A stretch of 64,000 nt of DNA from Perkinsus marinus ATCC 50983. Lineage: Eukaryota; Perkinsozoa; Perkinsida; Perkinsidae. Both the position numbers and the translations under genes were made by a program. Location of the stretch: positions 64,724-128,723 of the forward strand of contig NW_003208496.1 of NCBI RefSeq assembly GCF_000006405.1, read 5' to 3'. Shown here piece by piece: positions 15,626 to 60,506 of this stretch; within the stretch, counting starts at the first letter, position 1; every line of letters begins with the position of its first letter. A model generated the notes under the pieces. It saw nothing but the letters and a program-made list of their open reading frames with translations, did not search any database and was not told the DNA's origin.

Positions 15626-18600
15626 CTATGATACTGTATCAACGGGAGCGCTTCCTTCGCCCTCCGCCTCCACTGCTTGCTTCGACTGCTGCTTTTCACC
15701 ATCTCGGTCTAGGTAGAGACTCAATGCGAAGACTATATCCCTACGTATGGCCTCTCGGCACTGCTCCACTTTATTCACCACTTCAGTGGAGCCCATGACC
15801 TCAGCGGCCTTCCCCAAGCGTCGGAACAACTCGTCGCATCTTTGGATACTCCTAACCACAGCTCCTTCCTGTAGCGGTTTGTCACCTGGTTTCCACAGAG
15901 AGTAATAGACCTCTTCATCGTCCTTGCTCGAGATCGGCTCGGCGGTCATCAGTTCAGCAAAGGGCACCCCTCTCGCCCAGGCATGAGCCAGTGGGGCTAT
16001 GCCGAGACATAACTGCTTGTCAAATTCAGTCCAGTCTGTCTCCACCCTTTCTTTGGTCAACACATCCGCCACTTTGCCGTGCATCTCCATCGCTCTCTCC
16101 AGTAGCTTCACCGTTTCTGGAGGTAGGAGGACCTCAGCCGCCTCATGCGACATCTGCGACACGCCCGAGTCGCACGCAAAGCAACAGACCAGTGCCACAC
16201 AAGAGGGCACATCAGCATCGCCGAGCTCATTGCAGAATAGAAGCTCAGTGAGAGTGAGTTCATCACCCAACACCAACTCACTAGCCGCCCTTCCCTTCAA
16301 CGTTATCTGCATAGTATTCTTATCGAGCTCGTCCAAGTCCATGAGCACTCTCAGCATCCTCTTTCGAGCTGATGCCAGATACAACGAAGAATCATCAATC
16401 TTGAACTCAAGGTCCTCAATGTCGTGCGTAATCTCCCCCTCCTCTACCACTAGATCGAAATGCTCCTGCCGCAGATGGCAGCGATGGCATTTGCTATGCA
16501 TCTTGGTGAGAGTGAGATCTTTAACGCCAATCAGCGTATCAAAATACTCCGTTTGAATCTGCTTCAGATTTTTCCCAAGCTCCAAGGGCTCATCGAACTG
16601 TCCTGCCTCTTCACATCGTCGGAGCTCTCTAGCCAGACCGAACGCATCAGAAAAGTCAACTCCATGAGGAAGGCAATGATCAGTGACCAAGAGCAAGCCT
16701 GACTTCACCGGCAGATTTTTGATCCTCACAGTGTATCCATTATCACCAGCCGGAGTGCTGTCAGGGACAGGCCTCCTCAACACCACCAACACATCTACGG
16801 TTGCCATCACTGAGGTGCTCATAGATGGTGGGCTTGCCCCAAGTATCACCGCTGGAGACGACACCCTTATGTTCGGCAAACTCCACACCATGACCAGTCG
16901 CCCTCGACAGAAGACTTTCTTATGATCAGTGTTGAAGAGTTTACCGTACAGCTCGCTGGCCATATGCCGGGACTTCAATTCCAACTTGGCGTATCTATGC
17001 ATATCCTCCTCCCCTAACACGCATTCCAGCCGGGGCAAATCCCCCTGCCTCTTTTTCAACCTCTGTAGATCTCTCTTCGCTGTAGGTAGCTGCATCGCCC
17101 TCGCATTTTCCAGGTACGATCTGCTCATTAAATCCTCCGCTTTCCAATGTGTCAACTTTGCCATTTGCAGTAGCATCTGGAAAGTCAACTTAAACTGACT
17201 TTGCAGAGGAGTGTGCTTGCTAGTCATCGTCGTAGTCAAAGCCTTCAGATCCGGCAGCTCCTCAGCAGCTAGGACATACACATTCCCGACGCTGTCAAGG
17301 CCCCTTCTCCCTGCCCGACCCGACATCTGCGTATATTCTGTTGGCAGCAGATACCGAAACTTCGACCCATCGTGTTTGCGTATCGATGAGAAGATGACCG
17401 ATCTAGCTGGCATGTTCACGCCCATTGCAAACGTCTCAGTAGCAAAAAGCACCTTTATGTGACCACGAGAGAACAGGATCTCCACAGCTTCCTTCACAAT
17501 AGGCAGCAGCCCTCCATGATGAACCCCGATGCCCCTCAGGGCCAAGTCGGTCACTGCTTGTATCTGGGGCAGATCCCGGTCGGACTCGTCCAACTTGGAA
17601 AAGGATTCCTTCAAAAACACGTGCACTTTCGATCGCTCAGCGCTGCCACTAAGCAAATCGAGATGCGGCATTCCCATCGCGTATCTTTCGCACCGCACTC
17701 GCGAGAATACGAAAACCGTTGCAGGTAGCTTGTCTTCAGTTTCCAAGGCTTTAATCATACCCTGCAGCTTCTGAGTTTCCAGTCTGATCTTGGACTCTCC
17801 CGTCAGGGGCTGCTTTGGTGCTGGCGCTCGGTGAACACCCTTGCCCTTTCCTTTGCCCTTGCCCTTGCCCTTGCCCTTCCCAACTGTCTGCTTAGTATTC
17901 GGCGCTGGGGCCTCAGATGCCCTCATCTCATCGTATCTGACCACAGAAAATTCCCATTGATTCTTTCTCGGGCACGTGAAAAGGACGAAAAGTTTCCTCG
18001 CAGACGAGTATCATCATATAACACAGGAGTTACTCAAAGAGTGGTATCATCGTATTCGCACTGTATCTCTGCTGGCAGCCTCAAATGAGATGAAGAAAAC
18101 TCAAATTCGTCGAGAGAATATACTCTTCGTAACATGTCGCACTGGAGACTGTGAACGGCAACTCACATTTTCCTATACGTAGCAGTATTGAAGACTCCCT
18201 TGTTGTCCATAAGCAAATACGGCTTATCCTTCCACCATAGATAGTGGCACAAAGGCGTTGGTCTGTACGCAGTGCTCACTGTATACACAGTACGCTGCTT
18301 GGTCCGGCCCACCCAATCCGCGAACTCACGATAGTTTGGTACGGTAGCCGATAGCATTACCATTGGGACCTGAGCCCCACCATTCCTAGGCTGCTGCTTC
18401 CGCCTCACTCACATCGGCTGGCATGAGAATAATACATTCCTCCCAAACGACTCCTCTATCGGGGTCGTTGACAAAATGCACCTCATCGAAAATAACAGTC
18501 TTGATGTTAGCCAAGTTCTCATCCTTTCTATACAGCATCGTCCTTAATATCTCCGTCGTCATAATAACCACATTAGCCTAGTACAGTGATAGCAATATCG

Positions 18601-27804: not shown

Positions 27805-30084
27805 ATGCTCTCTAGCCTCTCTACTGTGGTTTCTGCAAAGAAGCCCAAAGTTATCATTTATGGTGGAGCTGGTTTCATCGGCAGCAGGCTGGCTCTGTAC
27901 CTGCATCACAAAGGGTGCCATGTTACCGCAGTAGACCACGATAACTCCCAAGTGCTAGTAGCTCTGAAAGTAGCCGGTATACCTGTTATTAAGTTTTCTA
28001 GCAAGGAAGAGTGCGATTTCGAGAAGGACGTAGCGGACAAGGACGTGGTTATCATGATGGCTGGTATGCCTTCGGTACGCTCGTGCTCCAGTGTTTGGGG
28101 GACTATGGCCAACACTGTTGGTAACCTATCACGATTCCTGGCTTGTAAGCGACCGAAGGGCCAGGTCTTGATCTACGCCAGCAGCTCTAGCGTGTATGGT
28201 GACACCAGTGATGAAGTGGTTGATGAGGAATACTGCAAATACAAAGGGCACAACTATTATGATATTTCCAAGAAGTGTATGGACCTCATTGCTGAGCACT
28301 ACATTAGGGAGAGTGGTGGCACTGAGAAAATTTATGGTCTGCGCTTCGGTACAGTATGTGGATGGTCACTGAACCTTCGTAGTGATGTTATGGTGAATGC
28401 TATGGCGTACTCAGCTCTCACTCGGAAGAAAGTTGGCATTTTTGTTGAGCATGTACATCGACCGGTTTTGGCACTTGAAGACCTCTGTAGAGCAGTAGAG
28501 GCGCTCATGACCTATAGACCGGACGGTGGGGTATACAACCTGGCCAGTGTTCAACATACGGTCTATGAATTCGGTAAGGAGGTTTCGGACTTCTTCAATG
28601 TCCCCCTTGTGCGTGAGCAGCTGGTCCCTGGCACACGCGGCAATGAGAAATTCACTAAGACGACTTACGACTTCTGCGTTTCAACTGACAAGTTCCTCAA
28701 AGCCATCCCGTCGTTTAAGTTCGTCGCTACTGCTGCGAGTATCTGCCAGGAGATCAGAGACAACTGGGATGACATCATACTCGCTGGACCTCGCCTTGCA
28801 GATCGATACACTGAGATCAGAACTGCAAAGGCGTTAGAGTGTACCGAGGTCAAGAAGTGCCGCTGTTGTGGTAGGAGTGATCTTAGATTGGTCCTCGACT
28901 TGGGTAGTCAGCCGCCTGCTAACAGTTTCCATCCTGCTACTTCACAGGAGGTTAAATCGTACCCTCTTCAAGTGAAGGTTTGCGAGCACTGCTGGCATCT
29001 CCAGTTGGCTCATGTAGTCAACCCGGACGTCCTCTTTCGTGACTATGTCTACGTGTCGGGTACATCCAGCACTTTGGCCAAGTACTCGCAATGGTTCGCT
29101 GATATGGTCGCGAAGGATGTCGGGAAGTCTTATGGTGTTGTTCTCGACGTTGGTTGTAATGACGGAACTTTACTGGACTACTTCAACCAAATCGGATGGA
29201 AGACCGTCGGCGTTGATCCAGCTGTGAATCTGATGAGTGAAGTGACTATCAAGAAAGGTCATCGTGCTATTTGTGATTATTGGTCGCCTCAAGTTGCTGG
29301 ACAGATTGGCTTAGTTGATGCTGTTACGGCGCAGAATGTCTTCGCTCACGTTGCCCAGCCAGTTGAGTTCTTGGAAGCCTGTGCGGAGGTTATGAACGAC
29401 GAGTCGAGGCTCTATATACAGACTAGTCAGGCCGATATTGTTGCTAATGGAGAATTCGATACGATCTACCATGAGCATCAGTCCTTCTTCTCTACAAAAT
29501 CGATGATTGTATTAGCGGAGCGATGCGGCTTTACTGTTGTACGCGTGACTAAACCCAGTATACACGGTACATCGTATATCTTCTGTCTGAGGAAGGGCGT
29601 ACGGATGGAACTGGTCGAAGACACGGTAAGGAGTGAGCTCGTGAAGGAAGAGGCCAGGGGTATCTACAGTATCGGTACCTACAAGCACTTCGCCGCTCTG
29701 GCGAGAAGTCGAACGGCAAGTTTCCTCCGACGCCTCCGTGAATGGTGGATGGAAGGCCGTAAGGTCGTTGCTTACGGTGCAGCGGCTAAGGCCGTTGTTC
29801 TCCTCAACTTTGCTGGTGTTACTAATGAGTTGGCATATGTTGTTGATGATAACCCGAGGAAGACCGGTCTACAAGTCCCTGGCATCAAAGGCCTTATGGT
29901 CTACGATCCGAAGGCCGCCCTTCAGCGCGAGGAGTCTGACCTCATTGTGGTGGTATTGGCTTGGAACTTCCTCGATGAGATCAAGGGGAGAGTGAAGGCT
30001 CTTAGACCTGATGCTCATGATGAATTCCATTCTATTCTGGACATGGCGAAATCCTCGCAGGGCACAATCGTTAGCAAACTCTGA
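27805..30084 (+). CDS. Fused NAD-dependent sugar-nucleotide epimerase/dehydratase and C-methyltransferase, intronless
   Basis: A single uninterrupted 759-codon frame. Residues about 14-330 form an extended short-chain dehydrogenase: NAD-binding IYGGAGFIGS (18-27), ASSSSVYGD and the catalytic Y152-x3-K156. Residues about 350-755 are a sugar C-methyltransferase in the usual three parts: a Zn-binding Cys region (C352, C354, C355, C393, C396), FRDYVYVSGTSSTL, the SAM-binding VLDVGCNDGTLLDYF (446-460), YHEHQSFFS (555-563) and the C-terminal YGAAAKAVVLLNF domain. Such methyltransferases add a branch methyl to 4-keto NDP-sugars in bacteria. The fusion suggests two consecutive steps in making a branched or modified sugar; the substrate is unknown. 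With no introns among intron-rich neighbours and a bacterial-type architecture, horizontal acquisition is likely. Confidence 0.88.
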   Translation: MLSSLSTVVSAKKPKVIIYGGAGFIGSRLALYLHHKGCHVTAVDHDNSQVLVALKVAGIPVIKFSSKEECDFEKDVADKDVVIMMAGMPSVRSCSSVWGTMANTVGNLSRFLACKRPKGQVLIYASSSSVYGDTSDEVVDEEYCKYKGHNYYDISKKCMDLIAEHYIRESGGTEKIYGLRFGTVCGWSLNLRSDVMVNAMAYSALTRKKVGIFVEHVHRPVLALEDLCRAVEALMTYRPDGGVYNLASVQHTVYEFGKEVSDFFNVPLVREQLVPGTRGNEKFTKTTYDFCVSTDKFLKAIPSFKFVATAASICQEIRDNWDDIILAGPRLADRYTEIRTAKALECTEVKKCRCCGRSDLRLVLDLGSQPPANSFHPATSQEVKSYPLQVKVCEHCWHLQLAHVVNPDVLFRDYVYVSGTSSTLAKYSQWFADMVAKDVGKSYGVVLDVGCNDGTLLDYFNQIGWKTVGVDPAVNLMSEVTIKKGHRAICDYWSPQVAGQIGLVDAVTAQNVFAHVAQPVEFLEACAEVMNDESRLYIQTSQADIVANGEFDTIYHEHQSFFSTKSMIVLAERCGFTVVRVTKPSIHGTSYIFCLRKGVRMELVEDTVRSELVKEEARGIYSIGTYKHFAALARSRTASFLRRLREWWMEGRKVVAYGAAAKAVVLLNFAGVTNELAYVVDDNPRKTGLQVPGIKGLMVYDPKAALQREESDLIVVVLAWNFLDEIKGRVKALRPDAHDEFHSILDMAKSSQGTIVSKL

Positions 30085-48023: not shown

Positions 48024-48027
48024 GATT

Positions 48028-48489
48028 TGTGGACGGGAATTTAATGGGCCCCGACCAATTCGCCCCTCTATATCGGCAATCGCCCCTTGCACGTTCTGCC
48101 TCGAACTCGTAGATTCCACGGCAGTAACTTCACTTGTTAATTCGGCATTTAAGGGTATCGTAGTATTAGCGGCAATATTATAAGTATCATCAGCGGTATC
48201 ATCAGCGGTATCATCAACGGCATCATCAACGGTATCATCAGCGGTATCATCAACGGTATCATCAACGGTATCATCAGCGGTCTCATTAACTGGTATCGTA
48301 GGGCTTCCGGTCGCGCCTCTCCTACCACTTCCCGCAGAACGCAAGGCTGCTCTGACTCTGGGTGGCATAAGGGGAACAGACAGAAAAGATTGGACACTAA
48401 CGTCTCAATAGTTGGGGTATATCGAGAGTGCGTGAGATTGCAAGAAATCTACTTTACGTTCACCCGGTGAACTTCACCGCACTCCCACA
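48028..48489 (-). repeat. 3' LTR (462 bp)
   Basis: Identical to the 5' LTR except for eight instead of five 12-bp units encoding (A/V)DDT. It therefore carries a copy of the gag start, open from 48368 and ending just outside the LTR at 48003. Confidence 0.93.
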
Positions 48490-49711
48490 TCCCGGTCCTC
48501 TTGATTACGGACTGTCCCTAGTCCGTAGGCGACATAGAAATAAGGATACAGTGAGTAGCCTACGGTACTATCGCACCACCCCGTCAAATAACGTGACCTT
48601 CCAGCGGTGTTATAGTGACAGGCATTTCTCCTCACAGGTCATCGAACAATGTACCGTAGGGTAAAATTGGACGAAACAAAGCCACCCAACGATCTATGGG
48701 CGGGAGCATCTGAAGTCATTGTAAACCACAACTTACTGACAGCATCCTTGACTGGGAGGCTCATGCCATACCACAGTCACTGATGTAAGCGAGTAGGCAG
48801 TGGAACATCAAAGGTCACTGTAACGCATTCCTGATCGACAGTATCATCGACTAGATGAATCGAGGCATATCAGAGTCAATGATGCGAACAACTGGGCAGT
48901 GACTGCGGCCGCATTCTCCCGGACCGACAAAGTTCAGAACGCGCAGATATCATCGCCGCCGGCCATAGACCACTGAATAGAGCAGATATTGCCGCAGCTA
49001 GTCGCACGCCCTCGTTAACAACCTGTAGACCCTCATCAATAGCGCGAACGAAATAGCTATGACGGTGCTCGGACCGACTCGACTAGTGACATCAAATAAA
49101 GATAACCCCCGTCGACTTAGACCGTCCTGGACCGACTCGACTAGTGACATCAAATAAAGATAACCTCCGTCGACTTGGACCGACTTATGACATAAAATAA
49201 AGATAATCCTCGCCACTTGACACAAGCATATTCCAGCTATAAGGCAGCTAAATCCCGCACAATTGAGATTATAAGCGACCATAGACCACTGAATAGAGCA
49301 GACATTATCGCAGCTAGTCGCACGCCCTCGTTAACAACTTGCAGGCCCTCACCAATAGCGCGAACGAAATAGCTGTGACGGTGCTCGGACCGACTCGACT
49401 AGTGACATCAAATAAAGATAACCCTCGCCACGTGACAATAAGGCAGCTCAATCGCACACAATTGAGATTATAGGCTCTGATGAACACGAGATCGACAAAC
49501 AATCTCGTGCTTGAAAAAGAGCCAGTGTGACGCAACCCCCCTTCTTTTTTTTTTTAGTTTTCTTTTTTTTTTGTTTCTTTTTTGTTTTCTTTCTTTTTGA
49601 CAATCTTTACTTTTTTTTATACCGCTCGCAGGGCGTCACTACTGCGTGGCGGTCCTCCTCGGACGGAGTGTTTTTTTTTTTTAAAACAACAATAGGGAAA
49701 AAGTCTGGGCA
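48490..49711 (-). other. Retrotransposon 3' untranslated region with direct repeats and poly-A-type tracts
   Basis: A block of about 147 bp (48963-49109) recurs 316 bp downstream (49279-49425). Inside it, gaccgactcgactagtgaca and the following aataaagataacc recur several more times at roughly 60-bp spacing. T-rich tracts at 49546-49617 and 49671-49682 (A-rich on the coding strand) follow the pol stop. No ORF is supported. Confidence 0.8.
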
Positions 49712-52700
49712 TCACAGAGGGGAGGTGGTGGGTGACCGCCCCGAATGCAGACCGTAGATCTCGAGATCGGCAACAGCTGAGGCACGAAGATACCCGCGAG
49801 AGTCTAGAGCATCCACATGCATAATATTGTTGCCGAGTACCTCACATACTCGCATACGGAAAGTGCGACCATTAACCTTTCCCACCGTCACGAAGACTCC
49901 CCCATTCAAACGGTGCCGATAAGAGGGCCGGAATGGTCCGTGCCAGGGCGCCTTGGAATCCTTCGGTAAGTCATGCAAATGTAATAGGAGTCGGCCATTA
50001 TCAGCATGCCTCTCAATGACACGCCCAACATGCCAGACTTTTCGGTCGTCAGTGGAACCGGCGACGAGAAGAATCGTACCCACTCCCACAGAGTCGGGAA
50101 TGACATTGAAATCCCAAAAATCCGCAGGTGGTGGTAGACTGTATCGCTTTTCATAATAACCTCTCATATCCTCAGGACAGTCGACCATATAGTTGGTATG
50201 AGCCACAAACGAATCGAGCCAGACACTCCCAGGATCCAGACTATCAGCGAGCAGGTAGTTGACAGCACTCAGCTTCTTCACCACAACATAAGGTCCATGC
50301 CAACGGCGAACCAACTTTGAGGATCCTCCTCGCATATCACCCAACTCACGATAGTATAGGACATGGGAGCCGAGAGGAAAATCCTCTACTCGGGATTCGT
50401 CATTCCATTCTTCCTCCCGTCTGTCCTGAGAGAAGCTGCGCACCGAAGCAAAACGTTCACGGATTTTCGTAAGCGTGCGCTTCAATTTAATATAATAATC
50501 ATCAACTTCGGGCTTCACCTGGGACAGCACATCTTGTAACATCTGATCGAGCATAGTATGAGGGATACGACCATATAACAACTCGAATGGGGAAAACCCA
50601 CAATCTCGTCTCGGAATAACACGTAGAGCATGCTGGACAACCGGCAAGGCTCGCCACCACTCCCCTCCGAACTCCTCAGCCCAGATCTTGAGTTTGCGCA
50701 CCAACTCCTGGTTTATACGCTCTGTGCACCCATTAGTCTGGGGCCGGTGCCCCGAGGACACGAGATGAGTTATGTTGAGGGTCCGACAGATGCTGCCCAT
50801 AACATCGTTCAGGAATTCTCCTCCTCGATCCGACAGTAGTTCACAAAATGGGCCATGTCGCAATATCCAATTGTCCACGATAGCTTGTGCCACCTCCTTA
50901 GCTTCCTTAGTGTAAAGTGGAGCCAATTCCAACCATCCAGTATAGACGTCTAACATAACCAAACAATAAAGAGGGAATGCCGACTGATCCTGCGGAGTGT
51001 ACTGAGGTAAATGAATTGGGCCAACCAAATCAATACCCACCCGTTGCATCGCAGCAGCAACATGACGTGAATGTTGATGCACATTACCGTAAACCGAGGG
51101 CCCCCTCCTGATACTACGACAAGTTATGCAGCGGCGGACGTAATCAGAGCAATCACGCCACATGCCCTTCCAGTAGAACTGTCTCCTCAGCATATTATAC
51201 ATCCCATACCGACCAGGATGGCCGCTTTCGAGCCCATTATGGTAGAGGTCAAGAAGAGAGGCACGTAGGGCTTGGGGAACCACAATTTGATGGAAGATTG
51301 TGTCGAGCGACTCATCATACTGCGTGCGCTTCAAGAGCTGGTCTAAATAATGTCGCTCCGCCTTCGCTCGGATCTTAAGAACCGTATCTTTGGTCAGTCC
51401 CGCAGTGTCACCGTTGAGGAACTTGATGAGGGGTCCAATCTCCGGATCCTCTTCTTGCAACTGCTTCACATATCGGAGCGTTTCCGATGAAGGATCGCGA
51501 CGACGAAGGTCCGCGAGTAATGATGCGTCCAAAGACTGCTGAATTCCTTCCGGAACCTCGCCATCGTCAGCCTCCTGCACCCCGGGATTATCATAATCTA
51601 TTGCAGCTTGTAATCCCTCACACTCGGCATCCCCTTCGCTGAAATTTCTCTTGCAGCTCGTACAGTAGAGCGAGCCAGTAGCACGCGGTCGCCTGCAGGT
51701 ATCATTCTTACAGAGATCCACACAGTATTTGCAGAGGCGCTCTATACCATCCGAGAGATCGGCAGTCCTAGTACAGCCGTACTTCTGGCAGGGATTACTA
51801 TAGGCTGCTTGACGCCGAGTTCGAGATGCCGACGGAGATGGTTGTAGCCTACGCACCGGTTTGTGATGAACCATCGCTTCTGCCGCCTTACGGACAGCGA
51901 CGTCGTCAGGATCCTCGCTACCGGTAAAGCAAGTATAACTCGATAACGCCTCCTCAACTTCCTCCACGAGTAACGGCCCAATCCATTCTACCAATTCGGG
52001 GGCGAGCAACGGTAGGAATGTAGATGAAGACACATCAATCTCCTTAGAAAGCGGAAAGCCTATATCCAGGGCGGCCGTTGCAGTCTCCATACCTACAACA
52101 CCGCGGCACTTAACCAGACGAATACCTCCACGTTCAATCCTAACAGCCTCAAATGTAACACTGGGATGGAGCTGCTTGACTGCCGCGAGGACAGCTTTTA
52201 GCGGACGCCGAACAGTCCAGGTTTCTGGTGACATCCCAAGGTGACTCTTGGAGATGGGAACCACACCGCACACATGTCCAACCCACTCCTGTAACAATAG
52301 GTTCGCACTGGATGGCAAGTCATCATAACCAATATAGTCAATCTTCTCACAGCATTCGACCACACCTGCTATAACACGATCCTTCAATTCTAGTAGTAGT
52401 TTCACCACCGGGGACCGCTTGCAGTCGGCCTTCGTCAATACCACTGATCGGATAGAAAGGGGTGGTTCAGGACCGAGTTTAGCAACCTTGTTGAGAAGCT
52501 CCTGAAACCCCGAGCTGTCGCGGGACACGTCACATTGCTCCATATCACCGATCACCACCATCCGACTTCCTATTCCGGCGCGAGTGAGCACGGCCCATAA
52601 TTCCGACGCCGAGCAATTTTGAGCCTCGTCGAGTATCAGCCAAGTGTCGTCCAAAGAGTAACCACGGATCATCGAGATCGGTATGACTTGTATGCTGCCC

Positions 52701-54502
52701 TCCGCTTGCAACTCCTTCACCCTCCCCTCCGACAAAAACCGGGAGAGGTAACTCAGGAGCGGGCGCACCCAGAGAGCCATCTTCTCCGCGACGCTTCCCT
52801 TAACATATCCGATATCCCTACCAACGGGCACCACGGGTCGCGTTATGATGATTCTTTTAACCCTGCCCCTGTCGAGCGATTTGGCAGCCGCCTCACAAGC
52901 CAGCATGGATTTTCCCGTTCCGGCCGGTCCGGATACCAGTACAACCTCCGCACGCGGGTCCTCTAGAGCCTCGAGATACTCGGATGTCTTCTCTGCCATC
53001 CCGCTGCCCTCCTGAACTGTCGCCACTTCGACGGGTACGGTCGAGCCCCCCTGCCCCTCTAGCGGCTTGGGAGAGACTCTACTCAGCATATCAGCAACCG
53101 CATTCAGTCTCCCTTCCCGATGTACAATCTCAATGCCGTATGCCGAGAGCCTTATAGCCCAACGCATCAGACGCGGCGTGGTGTGTTCGGTAGTCAGCAG
53201 CCAGCGCAAGTTTGCAGCATCAGTGACCAATTTGAAGGGTCTATCTTGCAGGTAAGGCCGGAACTCCTCGACGAATATGACGGCAGCGTAACATTCCTTC
53301 TCCTGAGAGGTCCAACTCCTCTCAAGATCACCTACGGCTCTCGAGCCGTAAGCGATCACTCTCTCTCTGTGCTCCGCGTCCCTTTGAATCAGAACTCCTC
53401 CATACCCAACATCAGATGCATCCGTGTGCAACTCAAATTCTTTGCTGAAATTCGGCCAAACGAGGAGAGGGTCAGAGGTCAACAACCGCTTGAGTTCGGC
53501 GACCGCGATATCACATTCGTTGTCCCAACCAACGCCGTCCTTCTTGAGAACCGCTCGCAATGGCGCGGTGACGCGAGAATAGTCCTTCAACCACTTCCGG
53601 AAATAATTGGTGCTCCCCAGAAAACTCCGGATATTCTTGAGTGGGGAGTCTCGTCCCAGCGGCATGTCGAGTATGGCATTCACCTTAGCCTCATCCATAC
53701 GAACGCCTTCGGCAGATATACGCATTCCAACGTACTTCAGAGTTGTGCGGAAGAGTTGCATTTTCCTCGCAGTCAGCGTGATGTGGGCATCTCGAGTCAA
53801 ATCAAAGAATAATTCTAATGCCTCGAAGTGGCCTGCCCTCAGCAGCGAGTACAGGACCGCGTCATCCAAATAGAGAATACAGCACCGGTATAAGATTGGA
53901 GCATAAGCACGATTCATGCCGCGCTGATAAGTCGGAGGACTGCCCGCTAGTCCCATAGGCATCCTCCTCCACTGGAACTGGCCCACATGCGTCCCAAACG
54001 CGGTGAGATATCTCGACTTTGAAGCCAATGGCACCTGCCAGAATCCACTCTTGGCATCGAAGGCAGAGTATATCTTCGACGAACTGAGCTCATCAAGCAC
54101 TTGTGCAACCAGGGGAAGCGGGTACCGAGGGATCTCCGTGAGCTGGTTCAGTCTTCTGAAGTCCTGGACCACCCTCCAGCCGCCACCCTTTTTTGCGATG
54201 AACATGACTGGGGACTGCCACTCGCTCTGGGACGGCTCGATAAGGTTCTGGGAGAGAAGGTCCTTGACATGCTCCTCCAGGGCTTGCTTCTGCTCGGGTG
54301 ACATACGGTAGGGTGCACAGTAGACTGGATGGGCGCCCGGAGACAGCTGTATCTCATGAAACACCCCAGTCATCTCCGGAAGATCACGGCCCTCATAATC
54401 AAATACATCCCAATGCCTCAGAACCAGTTCTTCTAACCGGGCCTTCTCTGTCGAGTTACCCGCCACGCAGGTCTCATCAAGATGCAAGTGAGATCGCACC
54501 AT
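49712..54502 (-). CDS. Pol ORF: reverse transcriptase, RNase H, PhoH-type ATPase, C4 zinc motifs, integrase
   Basis: 1596 codons, all intact. RT: about 70-250, with YLDD at 211-214. RNase H: about 350-470, with D361, E403 and D428. PhoH-type P-loop ATPase: about 515-705, with Walker A GPAGTGKS (525-532), TRPVVPVGRDIGYVKGSVAE, IPISMIRGYSLDD and Walker B ILDEAQN (623-629) followed by VVIGDMEQCD. Tandem C4 motifs: C905-x4-C-x13-C-x2-C927 and C931-x4-C-x10-C-x2-C950. Integrase: zinc site H1088-x6-H1095...C1125-x2-C1128, catalytic D1158, D1225, E1261 (D,D35E), then the WHGPY module at 1401-1405. A further 150 residues at the C-terminus are unrecognised. The ORF overlaps the upstream ORF by 70 nt in the -1 frame. 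It would copy and integrate the element; the PhoH domain's role is unknown, possibly RNA or DNA remodelling. Confidence 0.93.
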   Translation of the reverse strand: MVRSHLHLDETCVAGNSTEKARLEELVLRHWDVFDYEGRDLPEMTGVFHEIQLSPGAHPVYCAPYRMSPEQKQALEEHVKDLLSQNLIEPSQSEWQSPVMFIAKKGGGWRVVQDFRRLNQLTEIPRYPLPLVAQVLDELSSSKIYSAFDAKSGFWQVPLASKSRYLTAFGTHVGQFQWRRMPMGLAGSPPTYQRGMNRAYAPILYRCCILYLDDAVLYSLLRAGHFEALELFFDLTRDAHITLTARKMQLFRTTLKYVGMRISAEGVRMDEAKVNAILDMPLGRDSPLKNIRSFLGSTNYFRKWLKDYSRVTAPLRAVLKKDGVGWDNECDIAVAELKRLLTSDPLLVWPNFSKEFELHTDASDVGYGGVLIQRDAEHRERVIAYGSRAVGDLERSWTSQEKECYAAVIFVEEFRPYLQDRPFKLVTDAANLRWLLTTEHTTPRLMRWAIRLSAYGIEIVHREGRLNAVADMLSRVSPKPLEGQGGSTVPVEVATVQEGSGMAEKTSEYLEALEDPRAEVVLVSGPAGTGKSMLACEAAAKSLDRGRVKRIIITRPVVPVGRDIGYVKGSVAEKMALWVRPLLSYLSRFLSEGRVKELQAEGSIQVIPISMIRGYSLDDTWLILDEAQNCSASELWAVLTRAGIGSRMVVIGDMEQCDVSRDSSGFQELLNKVAKLGPEPPLSIRSVVLTKADCKRSPVVKLLLELKDRVIAGVVECCEKIDYIGYDDLPSSANLLLQEWVGHVCGVVPISKSHLGMSPETWTVRRPLKAVLAAVKQLHPSVTFEAVRIERGGIRLVKCRGVVGMETATAALDIGFPLSKEIDVSSSTFLPLLAPELVEWIGPLLVEEVEEALSSYTCFTGSEDPDDVAVRKAAEAMVHHKPVRRLQPSPSASRTRRQAAYSNPCQKYGCTRTADLSDGIERLCKYCVDLCKNDTCRRPRATGSLYCTSCKRNFSEGDAECEGLQAAIDYDNPGVQEADDGEVPEGIQQSLDASLLADLRRRDPSSETLRYVKQLQEEDPEIGPLIKFLNGDTAGLTKDTVLKIRAKAERHYLDQLLKRTQYDESLDTIFHQIVVPQALRASLLDLYHNGLESGHPGRYGMYNMLRRQFYWKGMWRDCSDYVRRCITCRSIRRGPSVYGNVHQHSRHVAAAMQRVGIDLVGPIHLPQYTPQDQSAFPLYCLVMLDVYTGWLELAPLYTKEAKEVAQAIVDNWILRHGPFCELLSDRGGEFLNDVMGSICRTLNITHLVSSGHRPQTNGCTERINQELVRKLKIWAEEFGGEWWRALPVVQHALRVIPRRDCGFSPFELLYGRIPHTMLDQMLQDVLSQVKPEVDDYYIKLKRTLTKIRERFASVRSFSQDRREEEWNDESRVEDFPLGSHVLYYRELGDMRGGSSKLVRRWHGPYVVVKKLSAVNYLLADSLDPGSVWLDSFVAHTNYMVDCPEDMRGYYEKRYSLPPPADFWDFNVIPDSVGVGTILLVAGSTDDRKVWHVGRVIERHADNGRLLLHLHDLPKDSKAPWHGPFRPSYRHRLNGGVFVTVGKVNGRTFRMRVCEVLGNNIMHVDALDSRGYLRASAVADLEIYGLHSGRSPTTSPL

Positions 54503-57500
54503 TCCTTGACATTCTGCGGAGGTGCGGCCGGGCGGGGCTTGAGGGGCTTGTAAGTAGGCAAGCTATCAGGTCGACTTGATCGTCGCGGTTCACGCCACAT
54601 AAAATCTTCATCTAAGCGCGGCAGAGCCCTCAGCGGGCACTCACTCGCCTCTACATCGCATACCATAGCACTCACGGCGTTGTACAGACCGCAAGTTCTA
54701 GCGTCTTCTTCGAGGTCGACTTCGTCGCTGTAGAGGAGTGGTGCTATCAAGTCGAGAAGAGTCGATGGAGGAAGCTCACTAGATCTCAATCCCGCAATAA
54801 GTTCTCGCATAAGGCGACATCGTACCTCCCGCTGTTCTTCGAACTGCTCATCCGATCCCGTTTGGGACTCTTTCTGGCCAACGAATGTTTCCACGGCAGC
54901 CTGGTGACACTCCCCGTCGAATGAGCAATGGCCTATGATATCGTTCGATCCGCATTGAACTGCAACATCCGTGGCCCCCCAGAAAGAGGGTCGAAGCTCG
55001 GCAAGTATCGGACAATGATCAGGTCGGTACCCCAAACCGAACTCCGCGTAAAACACAGTAGAGTCTACGACACAATCGCTCTGTTCGGAGGATACAAGGA
55101 TATAATCAATCCGCCTACCGAAGTTAAGCTTCTTCTCATACGCATTGCAATAGAAACTGTAAACGCCAGCTACTTCGGGATGGACGATTCTGAATGTATC
55201 GCATAAAGATACTTCTCGCTGCAGTCTCTCAAAAGCCTCAACCTCGCACGGCTGAATCGATGGACTATGTGGCGCCTCCCTTCGAGTATCACCAATGTCA
55301 AGATCAGATCCACACGCATTGAGATCGCCAGCTATAATTAGAGGCTTCTCTCCAGCCCGCGACCGCAACCACTTCATATATCGACGGAAAGCCACATCCC
55401 ACTTTGACCGATACTCCAGGAAACGGAGGTCACCTCCGGAGTTAGGTACATACACGGCAACGAGAGTGCATTGCCGCAACTCTATGGTAAGAACTCGACC
55501 CGATGTAGTATCTTCCTCCTCATCTTGTTCCCCATCAAAAAACCGGGACGGTATACCAGTAATAGGCTCGTGGATAAGACAAAGGCCATCGTCGTAGCCA
55601 ACGTCAACTGCTCTTTTCAGAAGGACCGCCACACCCGCATAGCCCTTTCGGCCGGCCGACTCAGCGGAGAACACATCGTACCGAACGGGAAGAGAGTCTA
55701 GCAACTTGGTGAAAGCCCTGTCTTTCTTCTCCTGCGTAAGCTTAGTCTCAGTGAGAACCATGATCGCGGGTAACTCGTTGCGGACCAAGCGATTAAGACA
55801 ACTCACATTGGCTTCGGACTTCAAGAAACCTCTCAAACCATTAATATTCCATGATAGCATCGAAGGCCCTCCTTGCCGTTTGCGGGTAATTGCGGGCCGA
55901 TGGATACGCTTGGGCTTTGGGTCATCCGGATTGAGTATCTCTCCAACTACGGATTCAATGAGAGCTACTTGGACCTCTTCAATGGGATGTTGTAATGGTG
56001 GAGGCTTTGGCAAGCCGGTAGAGACCACTGTACTCTCATCGCCGCTTTCAAATACCCGCCCATCCTCCGGGATCCCGATATACGAAGGATCAACCGCAAA
56101 AGGTAGTTCGTTCTCTTCCCCAGGAAATCGAACCACCACGCGCCGCTCAGTGGTTGTGGGAAGATACCCCACAACGATACACGCCTTGCGCTGCTCTGAA
56201 CAGCGATAGAGAGCAGCACGATGAGTTATGGTCTCCATGTTGTGTACGTCGAAGTTTTCCTCAATACATGTCGCCTCCCCCAAGATCGTCCCAGCTTCCA
56301 GTAGCTGATCCGTTGCGGAACGATTACGCACTAGTATTCGGGCAGCGTAGGTGCCAGCCGCGACAGTTACAACACACTCGGGAAACTCCAGGCCCTTCGG
56401 AAGCAAGCTCAGCGAGGGAGTAATCAACAGGGGATGCTCAGCAGTGACTACGCCCCCAACAGTCACCGGGACCTGTAGGACCCCGTCTTGCGGGATGACC
56501 GTGACAGCACCGCAAAGCACCTTCGCATGTTCTTGAGAGTCAGGAGCCTTCTCACGGAATCCCATACTACGCTCCAGGGGTAGTGCGATTCTCCAACGTT
56601 CTCCTGTTTCCGAACGAATAGACTCCTTCGGGATCAGACATGAATCGAGATTGTTATTGTATCGCTTTTCGACATCCACAACGATGAGGTTAGGGGCCCC
56701 CCTCCAGAAACTACGCCAGTTCCAGGAATGGAGTGTGTTGTTGCCGATGAGGAACTTCAGAGTTAGTCCCGGGGCGATCAATGCCTGTACGAAAGAACAC
56801 AGGGAATACTCCTGGGACCCCAGTGGCTTCAGGTGAACCTTCATGACGACGAAAGTCTTCGCGGTAATCGCCTCACCTCCAGTAACTCCAGTGAGTTTGA
56901 AGCCAGTACCCCTCAAGGAATAAGGACCACGAGCACATCCCTCCTTAATTAACTTGGTAGCCACATCGGGTCTTATCAAAGTCACCGGGTTACCAGCATC
57001 TGGTGGACTAACCAGGAGCTCGTCACCGCACTTGATACTGACCGAACGCGTCAGATTATAGGGTTGCCCGCTAGGGGATTCGATATCGCTCCGGATCCCT
57101 TCATAATCACGGGCAGGCATACCTGTGTCATCCGAATTGGCGGACACATGACCACAAGTAGTTGCGATCAGGGCACCGGTTCCGAGGGAGCAGAATATAT
57201 CGAACGGATCCTCGCCATCTTCCACATAATCATCGCCATCGTCATCTATCGATGAGGCACGACAAAGACCAACAGTCTCATGATCGGACGGAGACTCTAC
57301 CGCACTCGATGACCCTTCTACGCATGCGACACGATTCTCGGCCTGACCCGGCTTGGGTGGTAGATGCCGTTGGGAGAACGGCTTATGTTTATATTCCGGA
57401 CGATCAGTAGTTACCGCTACGGTATCCTTGAACTCAGTGGCCCGCTTCCGTAGATCTCTCTCCGCTGTCTTCGCATCATTCATGACGTCCATCAATGATC

Positions 57501-57534
57501 GCCGACTCCCTTTAGAGGTCTGGTACTTGCGCAT
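54433..57534 (-). CDS. Gag-pol middle part: retropepsin-like protease and ExoIII/APE-type endonuclease
   Basis: 1034-codon frame. The apparent ATG at 57534 is probably not the true start: this frame continues the gag frame across the hAT insertion. Residues about 165-275 look like a retropepsin, with PPDAGNPVTLI (D179-A-G in place of the usual D-S/T-G) and FLIGNNTLHSW near its end. Residues about 558-848 are a complete ExoIII/APE1-family domain: SWNINGLRG (N563), LTETK (E596), VYVPNSG (Y695), GDLN (D737, N739), RRIDYIL (D810) and YRPDHCPIL (D839, H840), so all catalytic positions are present. In LINEs such a nuclease nicks target DNA; its role beside an integrase is unknown. Residues about 340-425 form a beta-rich region. 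The stop at 54433 overlaps the next ORF. Confidence 0.88.
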   Translation of the reverse strand: MRKYQTSKGSRRSLMDVMNDAKTAERDLRKRATEFKDTVAVTTDRPEYKHKPFSQRHLPPKPGQAENRVACVEGSSSAVESPSDHETVGLCRASSIDDDGDDYVEDGEDPFDIFCSLGTGALIATTCGHVSANSDDTGMPARDYEGIRSDIESPSGQPYNLTRSVSIKCGDELLVSPPDAGNPVTLIRPDVATKLIKEGCARGPYSLRGTGFKLTGVTGGEAITAKTFVVMKVHLKPLGSQEYSLCSFVQALIAPGLTLKFLIGNNTLHSWNWRSFWRGAPNLIVVDVEKRYNNNLDSCLIPKESIRSETGERWRIALPLERSMGFREKAPDSQEHAKVLCGAVTVIPQDGVLQVPVTVGGVVTAEHPLLITPSLSLLPKGLEFPECVVTVAAGTYAARILVRNRSATDQLLEAGTILGEATCIEENFDVHNMETITHRAALYRCSEQRKACIVVGYLPTTTERRVVVRFPGEENELPFAVDPSYIGIPEDGRVFESGDESTVVSTGLPKPPPLQHPIEEVQVALIESVVGEILNPDDPKPKRIHRPAITRKRQGGPSMLSWNINGLRGFLKSEANVSCLNRLVRNELPAIMVLTETKLTQEKKDRAFTKLLDSLPVRYDVFSAESAGRKGYAGVAVLLKRAVDVGYDDGLCLIHEPITGIPSRFFDGEQDEEEDTTSGRVLTIELRQCTLVAVYVPNSGGDLRFLEYRSKWDVAFRRYMKWLRSRAGEKPLIIAGDLNACGSDLDIGDTRREAPHSPSIQPCEVEAFERLQREVSLCDTFRIVHPEVAGVYSFYCNAYEKKLNFGRRIDYILVSSEQSDCVVDSTVFYAEFGLGYRPDHCPILAELRPSFWGATDVAVQCGSNDIIGHCSFDGECHQAAVETFVGQKESQTGSDEQFEEQREVRCRLMRELIAGLRSSELPPSTLLDLIAPLLYSDEVDLEEDARTCGLYNAVSAMVCDVEASECPLRALPRLDEDFMWREPRRSSRPDSLPTYKPLKPRPAAPPQNVKEWCDLTCILMRPAWRVTRQRRPG

Positions 57535-57537
57535 ACG
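57530..57537. repeat. 8-bp target duplication of the hAT insertion, left copy
   Basis: cgcatacg, repeated at 58647-58654 on the other side of the insertion. Confidence 0.85.
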
Positions 57538-58646
57538 CAGGGTGTGATGTGAGTGGAAATTCAGTACGATATTCTGTGTTTGGAAATTTCAAGGTGGAAA
57601 TTTCCGGAATTTCCAGGAAATTTCCGCCAAGATGCTTCCGGGCTTCTGCGCTAGCGCGCAGTCGGGATCGAGGAAGTACAGAAGAGCAAGATCACGAGTT
57701 GGAGAGTCGTTTCGTGGGTCCATGCGTTACATTGTCAATTGCGTGTTGCGTTCAGTTCGAGAGCCAACGATGACTCGAAAGGGATGTAGTTGCGTCAATC
57801 ACGGTCACGACTGACGATCCGTCAAAGCAGCTTTGCGAGAGACAGGTTTTCGCTCTCGAAAGACCTCGTTTTTGGGTGGTCGAATTCTGTTCAGTATCTC
57901 GAAGAAGTCTGGTTTATCCATGTCTTTGAAGGCTTTCCTGTTATATTGCCTATCTCTTAATGGCTCCCTCGTCGCGTAGGAGAAGCTCTATCTTCGACCC
58001 CCGACCACATTACCTGGTGAAAACTCGGGCTGAGCTTGGCCTCCCACCGCTGTAGTACAGGTGCTGTAGTACAGAAGCAAGTATTACTTGCCAAGTAACT
58101 AGGTTACTACAACCCCAAGTTGAACTTCAAGACTTGAACTTAGTTCAAGTTCAAGTTCACCTTGCTTCAAGTTGTTTCAAGTGGCACCTCATGACGCCGG
58201 TGGCGGTCCAGTGGATGATGAACTCGACATGGAAATACTTGGGATCAAAAGTATATCTCCTTATTACTTATCATGGTATGAATTACTTTGCAGTTGCATT
58301 TTCGAGCGTTACAGGCGAGCGAGAAAATAGATGCGCTCGACGGAGCGAGGTGAATTGCCATGAATCGCCATGCGAAGACTTGTAAGCGCTCGCCTTGATG
58401 ATCGATTCCAGCCGTTGGGGCTTTTACGCACAACAACGGAGTCTGAGCATCACTACGATACTCTATCTATGCGGAGAGCTATTCTTAATACAGATTGAGC
58501 TTTTTTATAAACGAAACGTGCGTAGAGATCAGTAAATAGCCATTTTTGTTAGATTTCCTGGAAATTCAAGGGTCGTGGAAATTTTTCCGAAATTTCCTTC
58601 GGAAATTTCAGGAATGGAAATTGACACTTGCAAAAATCACACCCTG
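57538..58646. mobile_element. hAT-superfamily DNA transposon, 1109 bp, non-autonomous or decayed
   Basis: The ends are an 11-bp perfect inverted repeat CAGGGTGTGAT (a CAGNG-type hAT end), flanked by the 8-bp duplication cgcatacg typical of hAT. Subterminal GGAAATTTCC-type repeats cluster at both ends (57576-57630 and 58552-58622), as is usual for hAT transposase binding. One internal frame (about 58275-58340) reads NYFAVAFSSVTGERENR, resembling the C-terminal dimerisation motif of hAT transposases (YLA.paSSv.sER.FS). In another frame just upstream DDELDMEIL is reminiscent of the preceding motif. That suggests a deleted and frameshifted transposase, with lower certainty than the ends. No intact transposase ORF is present. 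Confidence 0.85.
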
Positions 58647-60106
58647 CGCATACGGGAACGCACGTGCGGGGGTAGTTCGCCAAGGAAGACAGAGATCACA
58701 TAATCATTGGAGGGACTTCCGCCGCGCTCAATCAGTCTCTCATAATTCTTCACGAACTTCTTACACAATGGTGCAACAAACTTTTCCCCGCCAGGCTGTA
58801 GGTCACGCTTCAATATAGCGAGAGAATCGCCCTCGAAGACAGGGATACACTGGTGCATGATGTGCAATAGGAGCCCTTCATGTAGCCCACGGAAAAATAG
58901 CTCTTCGTACTGAAGAGCCGACTCATCGTCAATACAGCTCAACAATTTGCGCACGACATAATCATTTCTATACGCTCCAACTATGGGCTCTATGTAGTCG
59001 ATAGAAACATCGCAGAGACCACTGTAGAGGCTACGTGCACTGTGGCGCTGACCTTCCGTCAGACGCACCCAGAGACGTAGGAAACGGGAACAATCGGGGG
59101 TTGTGGGCGACTTGAGGGCTTCGATCTCCTTCTGCCCCACCGGCCGATTCTTCTTACCTTTCGGCATATAACTGGGAGAACGCAAATTCCTCAGTGCTGG
59201 GTGCGGTATTTTCCCAGCCAACCTCAACAGTTTGGGATTGTCAAGGCATCCAACCCCATCGAGATCCCAGTTATCGGGAAGAGGATATTGGAGATGGCCA
59301 ACAATAGCAGACGCCTCCAAATTCTTGATCTTTCCAGAGTTAACCCGACGCATAAGCCGACACATATTCCTCCCTAGCTGCCATGGCTTACAGGCAGTAC
59401 TCACATCCGAATCGGAGTCTAGGGGTTTCGGATCATCTCCGCCCGCTGGCTTCCCTTCTCTGCGCTCCCTTCCAGTCGGCTCTCGACCACTGCGCTCGGA
59501 TGCTTTCTCATTCATCTCGTCCACTTTCAAAGCCAACCTCTCTAACGTCCTCTCGATGAGCGAGAGTCGCCTGGCTAGGACATCGGCTGAGTCCCCGCGG
59601 GTACCACCACTCGTATTACTGATAGTTAAGGGCTCCGCCGAGCCAGATACACCGCCAGCATGGAACCCATGCTGCGAATCGATTGTCTGTCCACCGCCGC
59701 CACTGTAAGCCATGAGGCCAAGGCCTCTTCCCGTCGACAATCGAGAAGTATCACCTGGTATAATTTGCCCTTCGGAGTCACTAGCCGCACAGCCCCCATT
59801 ATGTGGACGGGAATTTAATGGGCCCCGACCAATTCGCCCCTCTATATCGGCAATCGCCCCTTGCACGTTCTGCCTCGAACTCGTAGATTCCACGGCAGTA
59901 ACTTCACTTGTTAATTCGGCATTTAAGGGTATCGTAGTATTAGCGGCAATATTATAAGTATCATCAGCGGTATCATCAGCGGTATCATCAACGGTATCAT
60001 CAACGGTATCATCAGCGGTCTCATTAACTGGTATCGTAGGGCTTCCGGTCGCGCCTCTCCTACCACTTCCCGCAGAACGCAAGGCTGCTCTGACTCTGGG
60101 TGGCAT
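58637..60106 (-). CDS. Gag ORF, starting inside the 5' LTR
   Basis: 489 codons. The ATG at 60106 lies at nucleotide 122 of the LTR, so about the first 102 residues are LTR-encoded and the primer-binding site lies within the coding region. The N-terminus is basic and then has five (A/V)DDT repeats. A Gly/Ser-rich linker (about residues 100-180) follows, then a coiled-coil-like LSLIERTLERLALKVDEMNE, a charged linker and a helical region (about 240-489) with RFLRLWVRLTEGQRHSARSL and LFFRGLHEGLLLHIMHQCIP typical in character of a capsid. No CCHC zinc knuckle is seen. The ORF ends RMRRV at a stop inside the hAT insertion. Just before the insertion the frame matches the next ORF exactly, so gag and the protease/APE region were originally one frame. 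Confidence 0.85.
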   Translation of the reverse strand: MPPRVRAALRSAGSGRRGATGSPTIPVNETADDTVDDTVDDTADDTADDTYNIAANTTIPLNAELTSEVTAVESTSSRQNVQGAIADIEGRIGRGPLNSRPHNGGCAASDSEGQIIPGDTSRLSTGRGLGLMAYSGGGGQTIDSQHGFHAGGVSGSAEPLTISNTSGGTRGDSADVLARRLSLIERTLERLALKVDEMNEKASERSGREPTGRERREGKPAGGDDPKPLDSDSDVSTACKPWQLGRNMCRLMRRVNSGKIKNLEASAIVGHLQYPLPDNWDLDGVGCLDNPKLLRLAGKIPHPALRNLRSPSYMPKGKKNRPVGQKEIEALKSPTTPDCSRFLRLWVRLTEGQRHSARSLYSGLCDVSIDYIEPIVGAYRNDYVVRKLLSCIDDESALQYEELFFRGLHEGLLLHIMHQCIPVFEGDSLAILKRDLQPGGEKFVAPLCKKFVKNYERLIERGGSPSNDYVISVFLGELPPHVRSRMRRV

Positions 60107-60227
60107 AAGGGGAACAGACAGAAAAGATTGGACACTAACGTCTCAATAGTTGGGGTATATCGAGAGTGCGTGAGATTGCAAGAAATCTACTTTACGTTCA
60201 CCCGGTGAACTTCACCGCACTCCCACA
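59802..60227 (-). repeat. 5' LTR (426 bp)
   Basis: Starts TGTGGGAGTG and ends CCGTCCACA on the minus strand. Identical to the 3' LTR apart from 36 bp fewer in the 12-bp repeat. Confidence 0.93.
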
Positions 60228-60506
60228 GATTTGTTGACTTGTGCTGTCGACGCCTGGGGATTCTACCACGCCTGAGGTTGCCCCCTCGCCTCCTTGTGTG
60301 TTGAGCCATTTACTTCTGGGTGGTGCTTCCGTTGCCCTCATCCGTCTTGATTCTTTCGCTATCCGAATTGTGGTTTATCAATAGATCTGTACGTCTTATG
60401 GTGAAATTGAAGCCGTCCGCGTTTTTCTGTGGTTCAATATCTCTGTTGCGTTCGTGAGTCAGTCTTAAACACTCCGTGGGTCGATGGATAGCGGGCATTT
60501 TGTATT

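Follow-up and report, generated by a model that had tools for sequence, protein, structure and literature searches.

A Ty3/gypsy retrotransposon lineage of Perkinsus in which a PhoH-family ATPase domain separates RNase H from integrase and an exonuclease III-type domain precedes the reverse transcriptase

We identified a lineage of Ty3/gypsy long terminal repeat (LTR) retrotransposons in Perkinsus in which a PhoH-family ATPase domain lies between RNase H and integrase, and in which a nuclease of the APE1/exonuclease III (ExoIII) type precedes the reverse transcriptase (RT). The complete reading suggested by these comparisons, namely that PhoH would remodel RNA, that the nuclease would tend the cDNA, and that a phage-type PhoH was acquired a single time, has in our judgment about an even chance of being correct. 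To our knowledge, accounts of how LTR elements reverse transcribe their RNA usually include no motor ATPase encoded by the element.

The window (i.e., the whole 64,000-nucleotide stretch of Perkinsus marinus ATCC 50983 DNA that was analyzed) contains a 12.2-kb LTR retrotransposon on its minus strand, at positions 48028 to 60227 (Table 1). The two LTRs show no mismatch over the 426 positions that align, their 36-bp difference in length falling in an array of ~12-bp units, and because of this identity the window copy is a young insertion. At least two LTR matches were found in the P. marinus genome; since both come from the window element itself, a low-copy family is suggested. ORF1 had no domain match in Pfam and is presumed to be Gag because of its position. 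The presumed gag ORF starts in the 5' LTR (59802 to 60106), where the ~12-bp tandem array encodes an in-frame Asp-rich repeat, and the 36-bp LTR length difference amounts to 12 codons of this repeat. Imperfect repeats with 152- and 54-bp units were also observed at 48960 to 49440, in the interval from pol to the 3' LTR.

Table 1. Features of the retrotransposon in the window (positions are those of the window).
Feature	Position	Strand	Remarks
5' LTR	59802..60227	-	426 bp, TGTGG...CCACA ends
3' LTR	48028..48489	-	462 bp; sole difference from 5' LTR is 36 bp in tandem array
Target-site duplication AATC, 5' side	60228..60231	-	
Target-site duplication AATC, 3' side	48024..48027	-	
ORF1 (489 aa), Gag presumed from position	58637..60106	-	ATG within 5' LTR, stop within hAT-like insert
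hAT-like non-autonomous insert, 1109 bp	57538..58646	-	11-bp terminal inverted repeats, 8-bp duplication
ORF2, 1033 aa	54433..57534	-	
Retropepsin-like stretch (DAG...VTLI to FLIGNN)	56737..57003	-	protease by resemblance only
APE1/ExoIII nuclease domain	54994..55860	-	in ORF2; residues 577-865 of 1051-aa stop-to-stop frame
ORF3, pol frame, 1596 aa	49712..54502	-	
Reverse transcriptase, YLDD	53717..54199	-	RVT_1, pol 102-262
RNase H	53138..53527	-	two overlapping Pfam matches, pol 326-455; RT_RNaseH 351-455
PhoH ATPase domain	52388..52993	-	PF02562, pol 504-705
Cys-rich segment, pol 905-950	51653..51790	-	between PhoH and integrase
Integrase H2C2 zinc-binding domain	51116..51280	-	Integrase_H2C2, pol 1075-1129
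Integrase core, DD35E spacing	50702..51037	-	D1158, D1225, E1261; rve, pol 1172-1254

ORF1 and ORF2 are parted by an insert with 11-bp inverted repeats (CAGGGTGTGAT) and an 8-bp duplication (CGTATGCG), which from its ends and the length of this duplication we take to be hAT-like; six further near-full-length copies of it, with 94 to 98% identity, occur in the genome. The stretch of ORF2 at 56737 to 57003 had no Pfam profile match, and its likeness to retropepsin is our assumption, made by eye from the DAG...VTLI motif. The reading frame shifts from ORF2 to ORF3 in the window copy, and a public protein from this locus (P0001) joins the two, apparently via a predicted intron. A programmed frameshift is less likely, because the ExoIII end and RT share a frame in a second P. 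marinus copy (described below) and a P. chesapeaki protein, known as a protein record only, reads through. With its hAT-like insert and the ORF2/ORF3 frame change, the window copy is unlikely, to judge from its sequence, to be autonomous.

Two further ORFs in the window were recorded. One (27805 to 30084) joins an NAD-dependent epimerase and a C-methyltransferase (PF01370, PF08421, and PF08484), by eye a bacterial-looking sugar-modification pairing. The other (15626 to 17944) has DSHCT and Helicase_C domains and is perhaps a gene for an Mtr4/Ski2-type RNA helicase.

The 1596-aa ORF3 is free of stops and comprises, by hmmscan against Pfam, RT, RNase H, PhoH, H2C2, and the integrase core, with the rve profile scoring slightly below its cut-off (31.8 versus 32.6); the frame also has a Cys-rich linker, and the integrase residues have DD35E spacing. 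The best PDB chains for the RT-RNase H region are those of Ty3 (7q5b, 9.2e-79; 4ol8, 1e-58), and the element belongs to the Ty3/gypsy LTR retrotransposons. All eight Cys residues of the Cys-rich segment are kept in the three pol proteins that were aligned.

A sequence-only reading of this DNA had placed a PhoH ATPase between RNase H and integrase in a single pol frame, and this was borne out: pol 504-705 is a member of the PhoH family, matching PF02562 (E value, 8.6e-49; 166.3 bits; gathering score, 27) over positions 7 to 202 of the 205-position profile. The motifs named in that reading occur in order, i.e., GPAGTGKS (residues 525 to 532), TRPVVP (554 to 559), MIRG (611 to 614), ILDEAQN (623 to 629), and VIGDMEQCD (650 to 658). 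Among PHROG families the domain matched phrog_170 (205.9 bits), and a single chain matched among PDB sequences, that of PhoH 3B85 (1e-29); these profile and sequence scores rule out a chance motif match. Two NCBIfam PhoH equivalogs were matched at ~1e-28, under both cut-offs, as expected for a distant member of the family: the PhoH2 model NF053827 gave 98.5 against a cut-off of 680, and the YbeZ/PhoH equivalog (PRK10536, NF007827) gave 99.5 against 380 bits. The Pfam scan of the pol frame contained no PIN domain, the partner of PhoH in PhoH2. The sequence-only reading was thus right about the fusion and incomplete in its description, having missed both the APE1/ExoIII domain and the damage to the window copy.

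The fusion is repeated outside the window. Two places in the P. marinus genome scored over the PhoH cut-off, the window and a second copy (copy 2, on contig C293), whose open pol frame has the same domain order and is identical to that of the window at 1132 of 1613 aligned positions (70% of amino acids). A 7483-aa frame reported for copy 2 was discarded as an artifact of unread bases upstream. At least 39 RT matches, including pieces of a single locus, occur in the genome; they comprise the window, copy 2 (82% identity), and 37 at ≤39% identity. In other species, a partial P. chesapeaki annotated polyprotein (P0003) has the order ExoIII-RT-RH-PhoH-IN, and a 216-aa P. olseni record (P0010), which includes roughly half of PhoH and continues into the sequence beyond it, looks like the same kind of element by its sequence. 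These records came from a search in which 8000 candidates were scored and the best 120 of 7615 matches were listed. Among the best 120 of 872 RT relatives, PF02562 was present in three, which are the three closest (83 to 100% identity); the others among these 120 are at ≤40% identity, and none has PF02562. A PhoH-region search among proteins of ~880 to 2790 aa returned nine, i.e., three from Perkinsus and six others, which from their accessions we take to be of homing-endonuclease or intein type. Neither of the two outcomes named beforehand as refuting the fusion was observed. The profile searches support PhoH, and no copy of this family was seen to lack the domain: both P. marinus copies with RT identity of >80% and the P. 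chesapeaki polyprotein have the domain, and the P. olseni fragment has it in part.

These copies bear directly on whether PhoH is an inert passenger or the product of a chimeric assembly. The window copy is damaged by its insert and frame change, and the RT-RNase H block occurs twice in P. chesapeaki P0003, perhaps through an assembly fault, both of which would fit such an account. It is contradicted by the independent copies, with the second P. marinus locus and the records of other species ruling out an assembly chimera or a one-off insertion, as well as by the target-site duplication and identical LTRs of the window copy and by the strong constraint on PhoH. We therefore regard an inert or chimeric PhoH as very improbable.

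That constraint was measured between the window and copy 2, where the 198 compared PhoH codons show 68.2% amino acid identity, with a pS of 0.848 and a pN of 0.229. PhoH is under purifying selection, and synonymous sites are saturated. Codons 481 to 505, which precede PhoH and overlap its first two codons, have 24% identity and a pN of 0.597, and the stretch after PhoH has 45% identity. Identity is higher in RT (85%), RNase H (82%), and integrase (82%), all of which evolve more slowly than PhoH. Among 37 near-invariant PhoH columns (≥93% in 286 other domains, gathered by similarity to the Perkinsus domain), 31 are kept in all three Perkinsus rows, including Walker A, DEAQN, GD..Q.D, and R641/R696. 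The remaining six (Q506, L567, P568, P577, M612, and Q634) are altered in all three rows, and the activity may therefore differ from that of known PhoH proteins; in other PhoH domains, Q506 is conserved at 99.3% and P577 at 100%. We read Q506 as the base-contacting Q motif; the available parts of PMC7390352 name such a motif and do not give its residues.

The second extra enzyme of the element is an APE1/ExoIII-type nuclease, as identified by profile and motif matches. It scored 136 bits against the NCBIfam exodeoxyribonuclease III model TIGR00633 (xth; cut-off, 99.05 bits), three narrower ExoIII models matched below their own cut-offs, and the best PDB match was an AP endonuclease (2.2e-32). 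The motifs ETK, GDLN, and PDH, which we take to be catalytic, are all present. The ExoIII domain is whole in two of the three polyproteins, being located upstream of RT and PhoH in that of P. chesapeaki; in copy 2, only its end is visible (65% identity over 48 residues) before readable sequence stops. The P. marinus genome has at least 26 PF03372 matches, and by eye the window's is the only one within 10 kb of any of the 39 listed RT matches, where both lists are lower bounds and the cut-off nuclease end of copy 2 is absent from its list. The host APE1 was considered as a recent source of the nuclease and rejected, given that genome matches outside both elements are only 29 to 31% identical.

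The origin of PhoH was addressed with a 67-row tree. A length filter of 150 aa retained 289 of 290 domains, excluding the P. olseni fragment, and rows were taken one per cluster, 39 at first and then 67, with one of seven fetched phage rows merging into the cluster of another row. The three rows from Perkinsus cluster together (100/100) on a long stem (1.21), nested in a 21-row set (98/96) with 13 metagenomic rows, 3 IMG/VR rows, and 2 named phage rows (Agrobacterium phage Atu_ph07 and Rhizobium phage RHph_Y68). Chromosomal bacterial PhoH proteins make up a separate clade; four of the six named phage rows and 16 of the 19 IMG/VR rows fall in other parts of the tree. An AU test did not reject grouping of the Perkinsus rows with the chromosomal clade (p 0.115; the groups were defined once the tree had been viewed). 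On this evidence, a prokaryotic or viral origin of PhoH is likely, and the phage/metagenomic type of this set is favored as the source. The earlier suggestion that the domain was captured from outside is supported by the tree and by the lack of any other above-cut-off PhoH in the genome. Capture of a host PhoH gene was rejected on the same genome search, in which intron-split genes could be missed; four weak partial PhoH matches (15 to 21 bits) occur elsewhere in the P. marinus genome.

A giant-virus donor was also considered: the NCLDV capsid family was found in 0 of 22 viral records and a phage terminase family in 9 of 22, a comparison in which no control gave a signal and which shows little. 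These 22 records were chosen from 160 loci in two scans, 3 of them from the first; the other 19, from the second, are related to the metagenomic protein P0014 and were not themselves matched by the Perkinsus domain. According to the available text of PMC4476143, phoH is present in algal viruses, and these sequences were left out of the PhoH tree. As a separate observation, the metagenomic PhoH proteins P0012, P0014, P0017, P0022, and P0047 have long, partly hydrophobic N-terminal extensions that resemble leader peptides and give the impression of a possibly algal source.

For the function of the two domains, we propose the following. PhoH would be synthesized and packaged within Pol and, using ATP, would unwind or remodel RNA, whether in template structure, RNA/DNA hybrids, or remnants of the primer, allowing RT and RNase H to complete the cDNA. 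The ExoIII-type domain would rid the cDNA of abasic sites, blocked 3' ends, or leftover RNA, a clean-up that could loosely parallel what the dUTPase does in other LTR elements (PMC6431247). A single gain, with a phage-type PhoH as the probable source, would have preceded the divergence of the Perkinsus copies sampled. The nearest tested relatives that we found are PhoH2 proteins, which are distant; the mycobacterial PhoH2, which bears a PhoH domain, is an ATP-dependent RNA helicase thought to be hexameric, according to the available text of PMC7390352. Going further, and with somewhat less than even confidence, this lineage may have armed its polymerase with a phage-derived nucleic acid motor and a repair-type nuclease, such that cDNA synthesis in the particle is ATP assisted and self-repaired, and the changed residue before Walker A may mark an altered use of nucleotides within the particle.

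A role in integration or nuclear steps, in which PhoH would remodel the cDNA-integrase complex or the target DNA, would agree with its place in a frame shared with the Cys-rich segment and integrase, both of which lie downstream of it. PhoH lies nearer to RNase H than to integrase, however, Pol cleavage may part the two, and the activity reported for PhoH2 in the available parts of PMC7390352 is on RNA, so that we consider this role unlikely. Less probable still is an action on the host, with PhoH remodeling host RNA or countering silencing or decay of element RNA. A role of this kind has been suggested for the RNA demethylase that orchid Ty3/gypsy elements encode (PMC9289625, as far as available), and bacterial YbeZ/PhoH is tied, together with YbeY, to 16S rRNA biogenesis in the accessible text of PMC10582724; in the Perkinsus element, by contrast, PhoH is fused within Pol rather than encoded by a separate ORF, and the sequence gives no sign of a host target. 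Between these alternatives and RNA remodeling during cDNA synthesis, we prefer the latter.

In the open-licence literature, mostly available to us as titles and the starts of abstracts, no description was found of an LTR retrotransposon with PhoH, or with PhoH and ExoIII, in agreement with the sequence-only reading, to which no LTR element with PhoH was known. Table 1 of PMC6058741 (2018) includes PhoH and Exo_endo_phos among 92 Pfam models obtained from the word "retrovirus," filed as "other" and uncommented in the available text, which in those parts does not name Perkinsus; we would guess that this list echoes public Perkinsus "retrovirus polyprotein" records. These names have thus already been seen beside "retrovirus," yet the element itself is without a description in the literature covered. 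Two other hits were dismissed, one in which "phoh" is an unrelated label (PMC8508631) and one in which PhoH and Perkinsus appear in unrelated places (PMC5371807).

A lineage in which a motor has become fixed together with a repair-type nuclease is a natural system in which to ask where, during cDNA synthesis or integration, RNA structure or DNA damage is limiting. It is also a record of gene flow into a eukaryotic retroelement from outside the eukaryotes, PhoH being of likely prokaryotic or viral origin, with the domain added inside Pol and not as a separate ORF. In having an extra enzyme fixed in a lineage, the element resembles orchid Ty3/gypsy elements with a captured AlkB demethylase (PMC9289625) and the planarian, fungal, and rotifer LTR elements with a dUTPase between PR and RT (PMC6431247), whereas none of the domains named in the available text of these two papers is PhoH or ExoIII. 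Like other PhoH proteins (i.e., phage phrog_170, YbeZ, and the PhoH domain of PhoH2), the Perkinsus domain spans nearly the full profile and has Walker A, Walker B, and most near-invariant residues; unlike them, it is fused in the Pol of a eukaryotic retroelement and is altered at Q506 and five other near-invariant positions. With Ty3/gypsy elements (Metaviridae, yeast Ty3), the Perkinsus element shares the RT-RH-IN order, an H2C2 and DD35E integrase, LTRs, and a 4-bp duplication, but it differs in having PhoH and a Cys-rich segment between RH and IN, an APE1/ExoIII domain before RT, and a presumed gag that begins inside the LTR. Non-LTR retrotransposons carry an APE endonuclease, which is likewise a nuclease of the PF03372 superfamily within a retroelement; the Perkinsus nuclease, in contrast, passes the exodeoxyribonuclease III model, matches AP endonucleases, and resides in an element with LTRs and an integrase.
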